A DNA stretch of 46,230 nucleotides from Pseudomonadota bacterium. Lineage in GTDB: Bacteria > Desulfobacterota > JAPLJL01. Under the pieces are notes generated by a model. It saw only the letters and a program-made list of their open reading frames with translations, was not told where the DNA came from and did no database searches. Numbering within the stretch: the stretch's first letter is position 1; each line of letters begins with the position of its first letter. Made by a program: the position numbers and the translations under genes. The stretch lies in NCBI GenBank assembly GCA_026388655.1, contig JAPLJI010000068.1:1-46230 (forward strand), in the 5' to 3' direction. This document shows, in pieces, positions 16,749 to 36,003 of this stretch.

Positions 16749-18191
16749 TTACCTGAACAGATAGTTTACCATCGACACCAGATCCCGCGGGGAACGGATA
16801 TTCTCTTTCACCGTGCTCGCCAGGATCCGGGGCCGGGAATAAAAACGCACATAAGCGTACCTCTGATAATTCTTGATCGTTTTGAGAGAAACTCCGTCCG
16901 CGGGCAGTGAACCGGCAAAGTTATGGCAACTCGTATAATCCAGGTTTTCGAGCCGGCCTTCCTGCTCAAGTTCTTTGGTGATCTCGGTGCCGGGATAAGG
17001 GGAAAAAATCCAGAATTGGGCCAGGTCCAGCGGCAGATCCAGAGCCAACCTTATCGTTTTGCGAAGATCATCAAGGGTCTCCCGGGGATATCCCAGAATG
17101 AAAAAACCCCCGACCGTCATTCTGGTTTCGCGCTTAACCCGTCTGATCTTCTCCCGGATTTCCGCCAGGTCCGCCTTCCTCCGCATATCCCGGAGAATTC
17201 TTTCCGAACCCGATTCGATCCCGAGGGAAATATAAAAACATCCCGCTCTTTCCATCAGGTGGAGCAGTTCCGGTTCCATGGTATCGAGCCGCACCGCGTT
17301 AGTCCCGCAGTCCCATTTCATTTTCAGGTTTTTTTTAAGGAGGGCTTCGCAAAACTCCATGACATAACCCCGGTCTTCCGAAAAGGCATCATCAATAATC
17401 GCGAAATTCACGGCCCCGTAATCCTTCCGATACCGTTCGATCCACTCCATCAAGAAACCCACCGAATGCCGGCGGATCTTTTTTCCGGAAACCAGGGACG
17501 CCGCGCAGTAACTGCAGGGATAAGGACAGCCCCGGGAGGTCAAAACGGGAAGATACTGGGTTTTAACCAGGCGCCGGTTTTCTTTCAGGTAGCCCGGGAT
17601 ATTTATAAGCTCGAGAGCCGGCAAACCGATTGAGTCCAGGTCGTTTACAAATTGGGAGGGGGTGATTTTTACCCCGCCGTCGGTCCGGTAGATAAGGCCG
17701 GGAATCTCGGAAAGCATGGTGGCTGGGTGGCTGGGTTGTTGGGTGGCTGGAATGTTTTCCCCCCTAACCACCTTACCACCTAACGACCCAACCACCTCTA
17801 ATAGCTTCGGCAATCCGATCTCCGCTTCCCCCCGGAAGGCAAAATCCGCCCCGGGAAGATGCTGGAATACTTTTTCCCCGACCCCGGAAGGATGCGGGCC
17901 GCCCACCAAAACCCAGGCCTCCCGAAACTGTTCCTTGATAGCCCGCATCTGGGTCCTGGCCTCGGGCAAGCCATGGGTATAAATCTTCAGGCAATAAACA
18001 TCAAAGGGTGATTTTTTCAACCAGGAAGAAAAAGCTTTAGAATCCATTCCCCGGCGCATGCAATCCAGGATCTCGACCTGGTGGCCCTGGCTTTGCAGAC
18101 TCCGGGCCAGAAAGGCCAGTCCCACATCCAGGTGGCTCTGCTCGTAATCCCGCTTCCGGGAGGAATAAGGCTTAATCAGGCAAATCTTCAT
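16749..18191 (-). CDS. B12-binding-domain radical SAM protein (RSAM1)
   Basis: A 480-residue protein. The N-terminal cobalamin-binding fold covers about 1-130 (ICLIKPYS, LDVGLAFLARSLQSQGHQVEILDC, VLVGGPHPS, GADFAFRGEAE). The radical SAM domain follows: cluster motif CPYPCSYC (C222, C226, C229), WDCGTNAVRLD, ISLGIESGSERIL, FILGYP, SPYPGTE. Such proteins (BchE, HpnP and P-methylase relatives) use methylcobalamin and SAM to methylate or rearrange unreactive carbons. Residues 134-160 are encoded by an iterated-word repeat (17718-17798) and carry the odd peptide ENIPATQQPSHPATM. ATG 18191 has no clear ribosome site. It is 58% similar in motif layout to the gene at 18447, an evident paralogue by eye. 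Substrate unknown. Confidence 0.88.
   Translation of the reverse strand: MKICLIKPYSSRKRDYEQSHLDVGLAFLARSLQSQGHQVEILDCMRRGMDSKAFSSWLKKSPFDVYCLKIYTHGLPEARTQMRAIKEQFREAWVLVGGPHPSGVGEKVFQHLPGADFAFRGEAEIGLPKLLEVVGSLGGKVVRGENIPATQQPSHPATMLSEIPGLIYRTDGGVKITPSQFVNDLDSIGLPALELINIPGYLKENRRLVKTQYLPVLTSRGCPYPCSYCAASLVSGKKIRRHSVGFLMEWIERYRKDYGAVNFAIIDDAFSEDRGYVMEFCEALLKKNLKMKWDCGTNAVRLDTMEPELLHLMERAGCFYISLGIESGSERILRDMRRKADLAEIREKIRRVKRETRMTVGGFFILGYPRETLDDLRKTIRLALDLPLDLAQFWIFSPYPGTEITKELEQEGRLENLDYTSCHNFAGSLPADGVSLKTIKNYQRYAYVRFYSRPRILASTVKENIRSPRDLVSMVNYLFR
17718..17798. repeat. Iterated GGTGGYTGGG-word palindrome inside the RSAM1 coding sequence
   Basis: Left part iterates GGTGGCTGGGT/TGTTGGG; right part iterates its complement CCACCT/AACGACCCAACC; a TTTTCCCC centre lies between them. 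It is in frame and encodes the linker between the B12 domain and the IPGLIYR strand. It closely matches the block at 24456-24580 in RSAM3. Confidence 0.8.
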
Positions 18192-18195
18192 AAAG

Positions 18196-18437
18196 GGAAT
18201 TCCTAATTTCTAATGACGAATTTCTAATCAATGTCCAATTATCAATTTCTAATTCCTAAAATCGAAATTCTAAACAATGTCGAATGACCGAAATCCGAAT
18301 TATGAAAATAGTTTTGAATTTTAGTGTTGGGATTTTGGATTTGTTTAGGATTTAGAAATTCGAAATTAGAAATTAATAATTGGTTATTAGTCATTGGGAT
18401 TTGATTAGAAATTAGAAATTGGACATTAGAAATTTTT
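18196..18437. repeat. Long TTTCTAAT-word degenerate palindrome
   Basis: Fills the 255-base space between RSAM1 and RSAM2. The left half iterates TTTCTAATG/AATCAATGTCC; the right half iterates the complement GGACATTAGAAATT/GATTAGAAATTAG. It is AT-rich against a GC-rich background. No coding potential. Closely related to 22060-22275. Confidence 0.75.
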
Positions 18438-18446
18438 TTTGAGTTC

Positions 18447-19958
18447 TTATCCTTTTACTATTCTGCTTAAAAACCGCGTCAGGGTGGAAAAATCGGATAG
18501 ATCCCGGACATACCTGATCACGATTTTCCTCAGTGGCCGGGGCCGGAGAAAAAAGCTGATATAGGCGTAGGCTTGGTAAAGCTTCAACCCCGTCAAAGAA
18601 ACATCGGATAATGGGATGGAGGGGCGATAATAGTTATAACGGTCCCAGTCCTCCAGATTAATCTTCTTGTCCGCGACCATTTTATCCAATACCGGGGTTC
18701 CCGGATGAGGAGTAAAAAGAAAAAATTGCGGTGCGTCAATCGGAAGACTCCGGGCCAGGCGAATCGTCCGCAGGATGTCCTCCCGGGTCTCGGTGGGGTA
18801 ACCCAGGATGAAAAACGCCCCCACCGCCATTCTGGTCTCTCGCTTGATTAGCTCGATCCCGGTCCGGACCGCCTTTAAATCAGACCGGCGGTTCATCTCC
18901 TTCAGGATTCGCTCGGAGCCGGACTCGATCGCCACCGTCACGTAAAAACACCCGGCCCGCTCCATTAAATGAAGCATCTCCGGGTCAATCCGGTCGAAAC
19001 GAATGGCATTTGAGCCGCAATCCCACTTGATGTCCAGCCTGCGCTTTAAAATTTCCCGGCAGAGGGAAATTACGTATTCCCGGTCCTGGGTAAAAGCGTC
19101 GTCGGAAACCGAGAAATACTTGATCCCATAATCCCGATGGAGTTTTTCAATCCACCCCAGGACATATTCAATCGAGTGCCGGCGGACCTTCCTTCCGGTA
19201 ATCCGAAAAGCTTCACAGTAACTGCAGGAGTAGGGACAGCCCCGGCTGGTCAGGATGGGAAAGTAATCCTTCCCGATCAACCTGACCCATCTCCTTCTCC
19301 GGAAAAAGTTCTTGACATCCAAAGCCTCCCAATCTGGATAGCCCAGGCTATCCAGATTGTCGATAAAGGCGGGAGGATTGATTTTAATCCCGCCGTTCTC
19401 CCGATAGATTAAGCCAGGAACATCTTCGAGGTTGAAAGGTGAAAGGTGAAAGGTGAAAGGTGAATTTTGATTTTTGCTCTCCGACCTTTGAGCTTTGAGC
19501 TTTGAACTTTGGGTTTCTTCCCTTTGACCTTTGACCTTTGACCTTTGACCTTCCAGCTTCGCCAGAAGCTGGGGCAGCCCGGCTTCTCCCTCCCCCTGAA
19601 AGGCGAAGTCGGCCCCGGGGATATGCTGAAAAATTCTCTCTCCCACCCCCGAGGGATGAGGTCCTCCCACCGCGACCACCGCCTGGGGATGAATCCCGCG
19701 AATCAGGTCAATCTGGCGGTTGACGTTGGCCGTATTCATCGAATACACCTTGAAACCGTAAAAATCGGCGGGGCCGCGTTTCCTGATAAATTCCTGGAAA
19801 CCGGGAAAATCCAGTCCTTCCCGGACGCAATCCAGGATCTCAACCTGGTGGCCATGCTTTTTCAGAGTCGTCGCCAGGTATCCCAGCCCAACCTCCGGAT
19901 AAAAACAATCATCCTCCCATTTCTGGATGGAGATCGGCTTGATTAAAAGCACCCGCAT
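18447..19958 (-). CDS. B12-binding-domain radical SAM protein (RSAM2)
   Basis: A 503-residue paralogue of RSAM1. B12-binding region 1-130 (VLLIKPIS, PEVGLGYLATTLKKHGHQVEILDC, VVAVGGPHPS, GADFAFQGEGE). Cluster motif CPYSCSYC (C241, C245, C248), then SVSDDAFTQD, KWDCGSNAIRFD, VAIESGSERIL, FILGYP and TPHPGTP. Residues about 135-177 are encoded by AAAGGTG/CCTTTGA iterated words (19428-19556), giving a basic, low-complexity stretch such as KVKGQREETQSSKLKAQRSE. ATG 19958 begins 3 bases after the glycosyltransferase stop, so the two genes are translationally linked. Predicted to modify a lipid- or sugar-linked intermediate together with the glycosyltransferase; this is inferred only from context. 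Confidence 0.88.
   Translation of the reverse strand: MRVLLIKPISIQKWEDDCFYPEVGLGYLATTLKKHGHQVEILDCVREGLDFPGFQEFIRKRGPADFYGFKVYSMNTANVNRQIDLIRGIHPQAVVAVGGPHPSGVGERIFQHIPGADFAFQGEGEAGLPQLLAKLEGQRSKVKGQREETQSSKLKAQRSESKNQNSPFTFHLSPFNLEDVPGLIYRENGGIKINPPAFIDNLDSLGYPDWEALDVKNFFRRRRWVRLIGKDYFPILTSRGCPYSCSYCEAFRITGRKVRRHSIEYVLGWIEKLHRDYGIKYFSVSDDAFTQDREYVISLCREILKRRLDIKWDCGSNAIRFDRIDPEMLHLMERAGCFYVTVAIESGSERILKEMNRRSDLKAVRTGIELIKRETRMAVGAFFILGYPTETREDILRTIRLARSLPIDAPQFFLFTPHPGTPVLDKMVADKKINLEDWDRYNYYRPSIPLSDVSLTGLKLYQAYAYISFFLRPRPLRKIVIRYVRDLSDFSTLTRFLSRIVKG
19428..19556. repeat. Iterated 7-mer (GAAAGGT/ACCTTTG) palindrome inside RSAM2
   Basis: Four GAAAGGT heptamers, a middle with CTTTGAGCTTTGAG words, then four TTTGACC heptamers: a degenerate palindrome of 7-base words. 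In frame, no stop codons on the coding strand, at the same protein position as the blocks in RSAM1 and RSAM3 but built of different words. Confidence 0.8.
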
Positions 19959-22059: not shown

Positions 22060-22275
22060 CTAAAATTTCTAATTTCTAATGACGAATATCTAATCAATGT
22101 CTAATTTCTAATTGACTTAATTTCTAATCAATGTCCAAAAATAAAATGTCCAATGTTAAATTTCCTAATTCCAAACTTTTTCCGTTATTGGTCATTGCCT
22201 TTTGATTAGTCATTAGAAATTAGGCATTAGTCATTCTTATCCTATTATTTTTTAATTGGTCTTCAGAAATTAGGG
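22060..22275. repeat. Long TTTCTAAT-word degenerate palindrome (second copy)
   Basis: Occupies the 225-base gap between decarboxylase and aminotransferase. Left half TTTCTAATGACGAATATCTAATC..., right half ...GATTAGTCATTAGAAATTAGGC. Same words and layout as 18196-18437. Confidence 0.75.
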
Positions 22276-22281
22276 ACATAA

Positions 22282-23436
22282 ATGAAAAACGGAAAGAATA
22301 TCATGGTTCCTCCCGCTGATCCCATTACCCCTTTCCTGGTCATGGAGGTAATGGAAAAATCCCGGATCCTGGAAAAAAAGGGGAAAAGCATTGTTCATCT
22401 CGAGGTGGGGGAACCGGACTTTCCCACCCCCAGGATAATTACCCAGGCCGGCGTCCGGGCCCTCCGGGAAGGAAAAACCCATTACACCCACAGCCTGGGG
22501 ATTCCGCGTCTCCGCGAAGCCATCGCCCGAAAATACCGTCGTGATTACGGGGTGACCATCGACCCGGAATGCATTCTGGTTACCGGCGGCACCTCTCCGG
22601 CCCTGCTGCTGGCCCTGTCCGTGCTCATCTGCCCGGGTGACCAGGTCATGATGTCGGACCCCCATTATTCCTGTTATCCTAATTTCATCCGCTACCTCCG
22701 AGGCGAGCCCCAAACCTATCCCCTGGATGAAGATGACGGTTATCAACCCCATTACCGGGACATCACCCGCCACCTCAAACGGAAAACCCGGGCCGTCCTG
22801 ATCAATTCCCCCGCGAACCCGACCGGCGCCATCATCTCCCGGAAAAATCTCGAGGAAATCGCGAACCTGGATCGCTGGATCGTTTCGGACGAGATCTATC
22901 ACGGTTTGGTTTACCGGGGTCGGGCCCATTCCATCCTCGAGTTCACCGACCGGGCTTTCGTCATCAACGGATTTTCCAAGCTTTACGCCATGACCGGCTG
23001 GAGGCTCGGCTACCTGATCTTCCCCTCTGATTTCCGCCGGAAACTGCAAAGTCTGCATCAGAATCTCTTCATTTCAGCCAACGCCTTTGTGCAATGGGGG
23101 GGTATCGCCGCGCTGGAAAAAACCCGGGCCGAAGTCAACAAAATGGTCCGGGAATTTGACCGGCGGCGAAACCTCCTGATTGACGGATTGCGCGAGATCG
23201 GTTTCGGGATCAAGGTCCCGCCGGACGGGGCCTTTTATGTTTTCGCCAATGCCCGCAAATTCGGCCGGGATTCTCTGGAAATGGCGTTCGAGATCCTGGA
23301 GCACGCCGGGGTGGCGGTCGCGCCCGGGGTGGATTTCGGCGCCCGGGGCGAAGGGTTCATCCGTTTCGCCTACACTACCTCCCAGAGTCAGATCCACGAG
23401 GGAATCCGACGGTTGAAAAAATACCTGAGGAATTAA
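22282..23436 (+). CDS. Class I/II PLP aminotransferase (aspartate-aminotransferase family)
   Basis: A 384-residue fold-type I aminotransferase. Visible motifs: HLEVGEPDFPTP, YTHSLGIPRLREAIA, TGGTSPALLLAL (PLP phosphate), the aromatic stacking Tyr in DPHYSCYPN, SPANPTG with N179, DEIYHGLVY (D203, Y206), PLP-lysine K233 in NGFSKLYAMTGWRLGY, and the carboxylate-binding Arg near FIRFAY at the C-terminus. Start ATG at 22282 lies in AT-rich repeat DNA with only GGGAC upstream. The gene tail overlaps the 3' end of RSAM3 by 4 bases (convergent). Family members use aspartate, alanine, aromatic or diaminopimelate precursors; specificity cannot be read. Together with the PLP decarboxylase it suggests synthesis or breakdown of an amine. 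Confidence 0.88.
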   Translation: MKNGKNIMVPPADPITPFLVMEVMEKSRILEKKGKSIVHLEVGEPDFPTPRIITQAGVRALREGKTHYTHSLGIPRLREAIARKYRRDYGVTIDPECILVTGGTSPALLLALSVLICPGDQVMMSDPHYSCYPNFIRYLRGEPQTYPLDEDDGYQPHYRDITRHLKRKTRAVLINSPANPTGAIISRKNLEEIANLDRWIVSDEIYHGLVYRGRAHSILEFTDRAFVINGFSKLYAMTGWRLGYLIFPSDFRRKLQSLHQNLFISANAFVQWGGIAALEKTRAEVNKMVREFDRRRNLLIDGLREIGFGIKVPPDGAFYVFANARKFGRDSLEMAFEILEHAGVAVAPGVDFGARGEGFIRFAYTTSQSQIHEGIRRLKKYLRN

Positions 23437-25010
23437 TCCGGGCCGAGCCCTTCCGCCTTCCTTCTTAATATTTCCCAGAAGGCTCCCCGGTAACCCTCCT
23501 TTGAAATCGCCCGGGAAATATAATCATTGTCGTCGTAATTGTAATCCTTCTCGGCCTCGTCCCCGGAAGGAATGAAAAAGCGGCGGTCGTCATCAACCAG
23601 CTTTTGCAGATAATTCAACGGTTTCTTTCCCAGTTCTTCGGAAAGGAAAAATACCGGCTTAAGCAGGTTGTCATTATTTTCCAGCTCACCCTGGAGATTG
23701 GGATTTTTCGGCAATTTTCCTTCGGAAGCAACCTTCCTCGCCAGTTCGGTTCCCGGATAAACCCGCACCCCCAGGCTTAACCCCACCCGCTCGGGATCCA
23801 GCTTCTTTATTTTTTCAATCACCCCGGTCAGGGTTTTTCGGGTTTCTCCCGGACCGCCGAGAAGCAGGTCGAGCATCACCACGATTCCTTCACCCCGGCA
23901 GGAATTCCGGGCCCGCTCGATCTCGGTGAAGCCATAATCCCTTCCGAGTTTCCGGAGCATACTATCCTCGGTATGATCCGTTCCGAAATTGATCCCCCGG
24001 CACCCGGCCGCTTTCATGACCCGGGCGAATTCCCGGTCGAATCCGGCCGGGGTGCAGTAAGCGTACCAGCGGATTTTCCGCCCCAATCCTCGCCGGATGA
24101 ATTCCCGGCAGATCGCCCGGGCATGTTCCCGGGGATGGTTGAACTCGCTGTCGCAGGTGTGAAAATACGTCACCCCCAGAGTCAGCAACCTTTGCACTTC
24201 CTCCGCCACGGATTCGGGCGAGCGCAGGCGCATCCTCCGGCCCTTGGCCACCGGGTCCGCGCAGTAAATACAGGACCGGTCGCAACCGCGTTTGGATTCA
24301 AAGCCACCCATCCCCCCCCGGTTGAAATAAAAATGGTTGTCAATGAAACCCCGGTTCTCCAGGGCCAGGTAATCGAGGTCTTCAATATAACCCGGCGGAT
24401 TTTGTCGGATTTCCTTCCCCTCCCGCCAGACCAGGCCGGGGATCCCGGAAAACAAGGTGGCTAGGTGGTTGGGTTGTTGGGTGGCTGGAATGTTTTCCCT
24501 ACTAACCACCTGACCACCTAACAACCCAGCAACCTCTGATCTTTTTCCAACCACCGAGCAACCTAACAACCGAACTACCTCGAGCAATTCAGGCAGGGCG
24601 GCTTCTCCTTCCCCCCAGATCCCGAAGTCCGCCCCGGTAATTCTGAGGATTTCCCGCGGGGCCAGGGAAAAACCCGTTCCTCCGATCACCACTGGAGCCC
24701 CGCTGGATTTTTTGATTTCCTTGACCAGGTTTTTCAGCTCGGGCACAAACCCCCGCCCGCTGAAAAGATAAGCGTCATCCAGGTTGCGGAAGGTAATCCC
24801 GATCAAACCGGGTCTGACCTTAACCAAATTTTCTTTCAGATCAGAAAGTAACCGGGGATTCCGGCAAAAATCCCAGAGTAATGTCCGGTAACCTTTTTTT
24901 CGCAGGAATGTCCCCAGATACTCCAGGGCCAGGGGCGCGACCGGCGGCCGGAGTTGATTGGGGTTGATGAAAAGAATGTCAGGGTCGCTTACCCTCATCG
25001 TACCCAGCAT
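23433..25010 (-). CDS. B12-binding-domain radical SAM protein (RSAM3)
   Basis: A 525-residue, more distant relative of RSAM1/2. B12-type N-terminal fold 8-140 (DILFINPNQLRPPVAPLALEYLGTFLRKKGY, VVIGGTGFS, GADFGIWGEGE). Radical SAM cluster CDRSCIYC (C243, C247, C250), then TYFHTCDSEFN, CRGINFGTDH, LLLGGPGET and VYPGTEL. Residues about 144-187 are encoded by the repeat at 24456-24580 and contain ENIPATQQPNHLAT, nearly the same peptide as in RSAM1. The C-terminal 60 residues (FFIPSGDEAEKDYNYDDNDYISRAI) are not in RSAM1/2. Two possible starts, ATG 25010 or ATG 24998, neither with a good ribosome site. Convergent with the aminotransferase gene. Confidence 0.87.
   Translation of the reverse strand: MLGTMRVSDPDILFINPNQLRPPVAPLALEYLGTFLRKKGYRTLLWDFCRNPRLLSDLKENLVKVRPGLIGITFRNLDDAYLFSGRGFVPELKNLVKEIKKSSGAPVVIGGTGFSLAPREILRITGADFGIWGEGEAALPELLEVVRLLGCSVVGKRSEVAGLLGGQVVSRENIPATQQPNHLATLFSGIPGLVWREGKEIRQNPPGYIEDLDYLALENRGFIDNHFYFNRGGMGGFESKRGCDRSCIYCADPVAKGRRMRLRSPESVAEEVQRLLTLGVTYFHTCDSEFNHPREHARAICREFIRRGLGRKIRWYAYCTPAGFDREFARVMKAAGCRGINFGTDHTEDSMLRKLGRDYGFTEIERARNSCRGEGIVVMLDLLLGGPGETRKTLTGVIEKIKKLDPERVGLSLGVRVYPGTELARKVASEGKLPKNPNLQGELENNDNLLKPVFFLSEELGKKPLNYLQKLVDDDRRFFIPSGDEAEKDYNYDDNDYISRAISKEGYRGAFWEILRRKAEGLGPD
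24456..24580. repeat. Iterated GGTGGYTGGG-word palindrome inside the RSAM3 coding sequence
   Basis: Iterated GGTGGCT/GGTTGGGTTGTTGGG, a TTTTCCCT centre, then CCACCTGACCACCTAACAACCC and a further set of AACCACC/AACCTAACAACC words. In frame with the gene, no stop codons on the coding strand; same orientation and position as the RSAM1 block, with an extra right-hand section. Confidence 0.8.
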
Positions 25011-27972: not shown

Positions 27973-27974
27973 TA

Positions 27975-28135
27975 AATCCAAATATCAAAAATCAAAGTTC
28001 AAATATAAACCAACGAATGAGAATAAGAATTATTTCGAGTTTCTAATTTGAAATTTGGAATTTGATTATTAGTAATCATTTGGCCTTTGAATTTTGAGCT
28101 TCATTTGAACTTTGGATTTTGGGCTTTGACATTCG
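27975..28135. repeat. AT-rich iterated-word region
   Basis: Left words AAATATCAAAAATCAAAGTTCAAA, right words TTTGAATTTTGAGC/TTTGAACTTTGGATTTTGGG, with TTTCTAATTTGAAATTTGGAATTT between them. It is a degenerate palindrome of the same general type as 18196 and 22060 with other words. No gene seen in the 229-base gap. Confidence 0.6.
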
Positions 28136-35887: not shown

Positions 35888-35904
35888 GGTTTTGTCTGGT
35901 TTCA

Positions 35905-35999
35905 GAGGTTCAGGGTTCAACGTTCACAGTTATTCTTCAAACCCTAAAATCTTCTTCCTTTTCTAACCTTGAACCGTGAACCCTGGAACGGTGAACCTG
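35905..35999. repeat. Iterated GGTTCA/TGAACC palindrome
   Basis: Left words GGTTCAGGGTTCAACGTTCAC, right words TTGAACCGTGAACCCTGGAACGGTGAACC, with a TTCTTCCTTTTC centre: another word-built palindrome, filling the gap before the SRPBCC gene end. Confidence 0.6.
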
Positions 36000-36003
36000 G
36001 TGG

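Follow-up and report, generated by a model that had tools for sequence, protein, structure and literature searches.

In this study, which was based on a window of 46,230 nucleotides (contig C169 of G000, a 3.56 Mb metagenome assembly) and on the comparison of three species of its genus, G000, G001 and G002, all represented by fragmentary assemblies, we found that one linker of several B12-binding radical SAM proteins is filled in frame by arrays of 7-8 bp words and, judged from the alignments, that the contents of these inserts were not inherited vertically. The arrays differ between the sister species and are shared by sister genes within a genome, which argues that a coding segment was overwritten from a repeat pool rather than simply inherited. 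Three of the proteins are encoded in the window, the radical SAM domain of each lying after its B12-binding domain, and in their translations the CxxxCxxC motif reads CPYPCSYC, CPYSCSYC and CDRSCIYC. The genes, their inserts and a short hairpin beside one of them are as follows.

16749-18191, minus strand: RSAM1, a B12-binding radical SAM protein of 480 aa (PF02310 and PF04055)
17718-17798, minus strand: in-frame word-array insert of RSAM1, with GGTGG/GGTTGGG words, the core GGGAAAACATTCCAGCC and the peptide EVVGSLGGKVVRGENIPATQQPSHPATML
18447-19958, minus strand: RSAM2, a B12-binding radical SAM protein of 503 aa (PF02310 and PF04055)
19428-19556, minus strand: RSAM2 insert, palindromic and in frame, its coding strand reading (AAAGGTC)n ... 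(TTTCACC)n
19553-19572, minus strand: short hairpin CCAGCTTCTGGCGAAGCTGG, which encodes QLLAKLE and directly precedes the RSAM2 array; RSAM3 of G001 matches it without a difference over 27 bp
23433-25010, minus strand: RSAM3, a B12-binding radical SAM protein of 525 aa (PF02310 and PF04055)
24456-24580, minus strand: in-frame insert of RSAM3, an array that is sister to that of RSAM1

The earlier note on this DNA had described low-complexity in-frame inserts at one site of these three proteins, the junction of the B12-binding fold and the IPGLIYR strand, and the coordinates and domains agree with this: each insert follows the GE.E..LP.LL helix and precedes the IPGLIYR-type strand. Tandem Repeats Finder placed the arrays at 17718-17750 and 17763-17797 in RSAM1, at 19433-19464 and 19483-19552 in RSAM2 (four to five near-perfect units per arm) and at 24464-24494 and 24549-24580 in RSAM3. 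The inserts of RSAM1 and RSAM3 are indeed related, as was also claimed, sharing the core GGGAAAACATTCCAGCCACCCAACAACCCA and aligning with a z of 12.5, and the RSAM2 insert is built of different words that it does not share with RSAM1 of G000 (z 1.8). Exact matches to the RSAM1/RSAM3 core in the three genus genomes were confined to RSAM1 and RSAM3, and this search found no donor array elsewhere in the genome identical to a whole RSAM insert. The note had counted three filled paralogues; these three stand, and the number rises to five, since an alignment of the approximately 30 RSAM1 relatives encoded by G000 showed same-site inserts in two more and none in about 25.

C111:37952-39415: RSAM4, inserted paralogue
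C125:5420-6811: RSAM5, inserted paralogue

The site is thus occupied in five paralogues and in three species. The inserts measure 54-138 bp; those of RSAM1, 2, 3 and 5 self-fold or are visibly mirrored, and all are open. All 11 inserted RSAM genes of the three genomes are in frame throughout. The region C111:8214-51961 of G000 gave approximately 20 matches to B12-binding radical SAM proteins in about 44 kb.

The alignment of RSAM1-3 with their orthologues in G001 and G002, which had been suggested in the earlier note, showed an occupied site, a kept frame and different arrays. RSAM2 is written in AAAGGTC/TTTCACC words in G000, GGGTTCAA/AATCCGC in G001 and CAGGTCG/CCGGCTA in G002, and RSAM3 in GGTGGTTG, AAAGTTC/AATCCGC and CAGGTCG/CCGGC, respectively, while the RSAM1 orthologue of G002 carries an array unrelated to that of G000. 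Between sister species the inserts of RSAM1-3 orthologues hardly align (z 1.0-3.8 vs shuffles), with flanks that are 78-88% identical at the amino acid level (96% for RSAM2 of G001 and G002 over a 154-codon fragment). Within G002, the inserts of RSAM1, RSAM2 and RSAM3 reach a z of 15-18 (up to 18.1), and the flanks of the paralogues that share an insert, RSAM1/2/3 of G002 and RSAM1/3 of G000, are merely 28-50% identical. RSAM5 is the exception among the RSAM orthologues, as the same words were kept in both species (z 12.7).

RSAM1, RSAM2 and RSAM3 of G002 share a tract whose identity is 89-96% across the LPKLLxELQ codons and the insert, compared with 37-60% in the N- and C-terminal parts. It starts at the LPKLL codons, runs through native helix for about 27 bp and then through the array, and stops near ACTTGT in RSAM3 and about 27 bp further on in RSAM1 and RSAM2, after which identity is at the level of paralogues. 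The tract thus replaced native LPKLL codons, which points to conversion or templated overwriting rather than to simple insertion. A left flank of 27/27 bp is common to RSAM2 of G000 and RSAM3 of G001, and the words adjoining it are related but different. Ectopic gene conversion between paralogues homogenises short patches within a genome, contrary to the gene tree; unlike the usual case, the patch observed here is a repeat array in the linker of proteins that are 28-50% identical.

With a detector for periods of 6 to 10, 875 kb of G000 yielded 108 arrays and mononucleotide-shuffled sequence none, which signifies that the observation is real and not due to chance. The stretches of G000 were partly picked by word hits, and the density is therefore no unbiased estimate. 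Of these arrays, 64 are intergenic, 14 partly coding and 30 wholly within an ORF of at least 150 aa; in the 791 kb sampled from G002, 34 of the 112 arrays lie wholly within ORFs, and in both genomes many in-ORF arrays are located at the beginning of the ORF, a region in which the real start codon is not certain. Four arrays that had been reported earlier in gaps of the window, at 18196, 22060, 27975 and 35905, were all placed by Tandem Repeats Finder.

18198-18434, no strand assigned: intergenic word-array palindrome of TTTCTAA / TTAGAAA words in the RSAM1-RSAM2 gap
22064-22235, no strand assigned: intergenic word array, TTTCTAA class
27974-28126, no strand assigned: intergenic word array, TTTGAAC class
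35901-36000, no strand assigned: intergenic word array of AACCGTG/AACCTGG words

Each genome has at least two dozen heptamers that recur, in addition to octamers, the top words being AATCGTC, AAAGTTC and AAAGCGC. The description of the class as word-built palindromes fits RSAM1, 2, 3 and 5 and fails for array loci generally, in which the ungapped palindrome score had a median of 10 vs 10 in control loci, and a score of at least 18 was reached in 7% vs 0%. Many arrays consist of two unlike words, commonly a purine-rich one first and a pyrimidine-rich one after it (L048:475-540, L053:14238-14331 and L141:702-793), so that their arms are not simple mirror images. It is the arrays that are enriched and not the decamer GGTGGYTGGG, a proposed search term that gave 37 hits genome-wide, compared with 35 when the pattern was reversed. 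Moreover, the idea that palindromes are seeded from local words was not borne out; the words come from a genome-wide pool, the 9-mers of the G002 RSAM1 insert having 187 matches in G002 arrays vs 14 in G000 arrays. The words of RSAM2 of G000 are common in the pools of both genomes; where the pools differ, the insert words, by these matches, track the pool of their own genome. Of 297 genomes from the phylum, 7, which belong to five genera, contain the array AAAGGTCAAAGGTCAAAGG; this makes the repeat class patchy and wider than this genus.

We consider it probable that dispersed arrays of 7-8 bp words are tolerated at dispensable peptides and are repeatedly overwritten there by copying between arrays. 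The inserts would be coding-region copies of arrays that are mainly intergenic in the genus and in which a purine-rich array is often separated by a spacer from the pyrimidine-rich one that follows. Arrays would copy into one another via shared words, hairpins and short flanking homology, and we infer that the mechanism is gene conversion or template switching; the source would be partly short-tract conversion among the RSAM paralogues and partly arrays elsewhere in the genome. In genes, arrays would persist only where the peptide is dispensable, here a disordered loop that joins the final helix of the B12 domain to the strand leading into the radical SAM barrel, a linker that would stay occupied across the genus while its contents are overwritten again and again. 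Selection would keep the frame and stop-free reading alone, removing frameshifts and stops and letting tolerant sites keep changing, and the insert peptide itself is presumably neutral. Points against this explanation are the missing donor array, the unshared inserts of RSAM1 and RSAM2 in G000, and a nucleotide identity between RSAM1 and RSAM3 that amounts to only about 42-46% beyond the tract and leaves little homology for classical recombination. A bolder reading, which we regard as conceivable but doubtful, is that fixed coding landing sites such as enzyme loops and leader peptides are actively rewritten from the genome-wide word pool by a copy-and-replace process that is independent of classical homology-dependent recombination and outpaces sister-species divergence, something undescribed for bacterial repeats.

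The distribution of the inserts among homologues bears on how the site was filled. The insert is absent from the 25 homologues outside the genus that can be read across the linker, which have an ordinary loop of 8-12 residues, and one peptide conserved across diverse genera, which by the earlier note would have spoken against its reading, was not found. A wider contig scan yielded one same-genus assembly, JAQTNV01 (STA_72), which is apparently G002 itself as its RSAM1/2 peptides are identical, as well as JAPLJL01, probably a close relative, whose sequence ends before the linker, and two distant homologues. On a quick tree with long branches that was built without the linker, the inserted proteins require three changes of state, and a single clade of all the inserted rows is rejected (AU p = 0.028), while the grouping of RSAM4 with RSAM1/2/5 is not (p = 0.115). 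At least two acquisitions are therefore likely, and on this tree transfer from an inserted paralogue would serve as easily as a fresh insertion.

The three changes of state would also suit recurrent independent insertion, in which a mobile palindromic element would repeatedly transpose into every paralogue at one hot site, for which the upstream hairpin CAGCTTCTGGCGAAGCTG might serve as a mark. A folding hairpin adjoins the insert in 7 of the 11 genes, stability over the 39-nt window exceeds that in 42 homologues lacking an insert (Mann-Whitney p = 0.0016, with rows that are not independent), and Y1_Tnp (PF01797) genes are present in all three genomes. However, Leu/Lys/Glu/Gln helix codons are self-complementary by nature and can explain the hairpin, which may be a consequence or a cause of the insert, and we treat it as an insertion signal only as a lead. 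Additionally, the G002 tract replaces native LPKLL codons rather than adding to them, no target-site duplication of the kind expected of a MITE or REP/RAYT element was seen by eye at the RSAM sites, the aligned RSAM inserts have no visible fixed ends such as the terminal inverted repeats of Rickettsia palindromic elements, and no empty site was seen among the three genus genomes. Independent insertion thus appears unlikely.

A tolerant site agrees well with the structure of the linker. In an AlphaFold2 model of RSAM2, based on a shallow alignment of six sequences, the insert has a pLDDT of 31-42 at residues 141-170 (below 50 at residues 143-174) and lies between a core helix and strand, most of the core being at 70-95. 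The insert peptides, such as ENIPATQQPS, KLKAQRSESKNQ and TGRRSQDLTGNRLPATG, are without shared composition. Whichever of the three frames is used, a heptamer array encodes one and the same cyclic peptide of seven residues, and the decisive point is therefore a stop-free word. On the coding strand 47 of 52 words are stop-free, compared with 183 of 294 for intergenic words when either strand is read. The arms of the RSAM2 insert illustrate this: AAAGGTC is stop-free on the coding strand, and by inspection the arms are complementary at six of seven positions because the exact mirror TTTGACC contains TGA, which the actual right arm, TTTCACC, does not.

Other proteins carry arrays as well. A concatenated query for further insert-bearing proteins gave clear orthologues for a deoxyhypusine-synthase-like (DHS-like) protein only, which has three different arrays in the three species. 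In the PrmC loop that precedes the DLGTGSGA motif, G000 and G002 have an array in common and G001 has a different one, and a PyrK loop and a LysM/M23 lipoprotein leader behave similarly; these four sites, with RSAM5 as a fifth, behave like RSAM1-3 wholly or in part. Among 100 reciprocal-best pairs of G000 and G002, the clear internal array inserts fall at sites that are filled in both species, so that occupancy is old and the words turn over. REP-like palindromes are nested within some in-gene arrays; one, CCTGCCTGCGCCAAGGCT(T/C)CGGCAGGCAGG, is in frame inside the arrays of L245 (PyrK of G000) and L053:8226-9632, two unrelated proteins, and is read in both as LPAPRLRQAGK. In the LysM/M23 lipoproteins L080:11807-12685, L243, L244 and L205, the N-terminal leader is written in repeat words of the TTTGCGC or CTGCTCC type, read as LCSLLPALCLFLL, which vary by species. 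L205 and L216 are from G123, which belongs to another family of the phylum, and L216:1436-1564 is a type IV prepilin-like ORF with a leader of about 40 residues in AAAGGT words before GFTLIELMIVMTL; this leader would be cut off by prepilin peptidase.

The view of the earlier note that repeats normally lying between genes came into one linker of several paralogues, with the frame kept, is supported, and of the causes that it offered, a tolerant hotspot fits best, given a disordered loop, an unconserved peptide and no insert outside the genus. Another of these causes, selection for a linker, is not supported as far as the peptide is concerned. As a rival in its own right, a functional linker under diversifying selection would depend on length and disorder, whatever its sequence, and would be deliberately diversified. 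The linker is occupied in all of the genus members examined, by inserts of variable length that are always open and disordered in the model, as such a role would require. However, this rival is improbable, as the unrelated PrmC, PyrK, DHS-like and lipoprotein leader sites are filled likewise, most arrays lie outside genes and the peptides have no composition in common. Phase variation, in which heptamer or octamer copy number toggles a gene by frameshift, is more improbable still: neither 7 nor 8 bp is divisible by three and RSAM2 has near-perfect units, but all eleven inserted genes are in frame, and a stop-free heptamer array gives one cyclic peptide whatever the frame, though the downstream frame would still shift. 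An assembly artefact, conceivable for repeats in draft metagenome assemblies, can hardly be credited when three separately assembled species, each with words of its own, have in-frame arrays at one and the same codon position, on contigs that run through the arrays.

Rickettsia palindromic elements are repeats of about 100-150 bp that lie in frame in conserved proteins as well as in intergenic regions, with function apparently tolerated (PMC10969869, PMC2229807). The arrays of this genus are likewise in frame, tolerated and also intergenic, and the inserts of RSAM1, 2, 3 and 5 are palindromic. However, the Rickettsia elements have a conserved family sequence and peptide in unrelated genes, whereas here the words vary from copy to copy (close sharing is limited to RSAM1/RSAM3 of G000 and RSAM1/2/3 of G002), several paralogues are filled at one loop and the contents change between sister species. 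Heptamer repeats are known as GGGAATC in Xanthomonas and GGGGA(C/T)T in Nostoc (PMC4692102), and as TAACTGA in marine Beggiatoaceae, where in-ORF copies lie mainly at protein ends (PMC4679880). These share with our arrays the seven-base tandem units that are mostly intergenic, scattered over the genome and occasionally in ORFs, but they use one word or a close pair per genome, compared with dozens of words, often in opposed arms. In Nematomorpha mitochondrial genes, coding inverted repeats were gained and lost between species and template switching was proposed (PMC6649704); the inverted repeats of that case are perfect and contain no word arrays. In the literature that we searched, there was no description of such word arrays in coding linkers.

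Taken as described, this is a concerted, non-vertical evolution of a protein-coding segment made from repeat DNA, which tracks the genome and not the gene. Several sites in three species form a natural series on how short-word repeats copy themselves, which protein sites take a foreign peptide and whether leader peptides arise from repeats. Moreover, array-filled loops can mislead alignments and gene trees.
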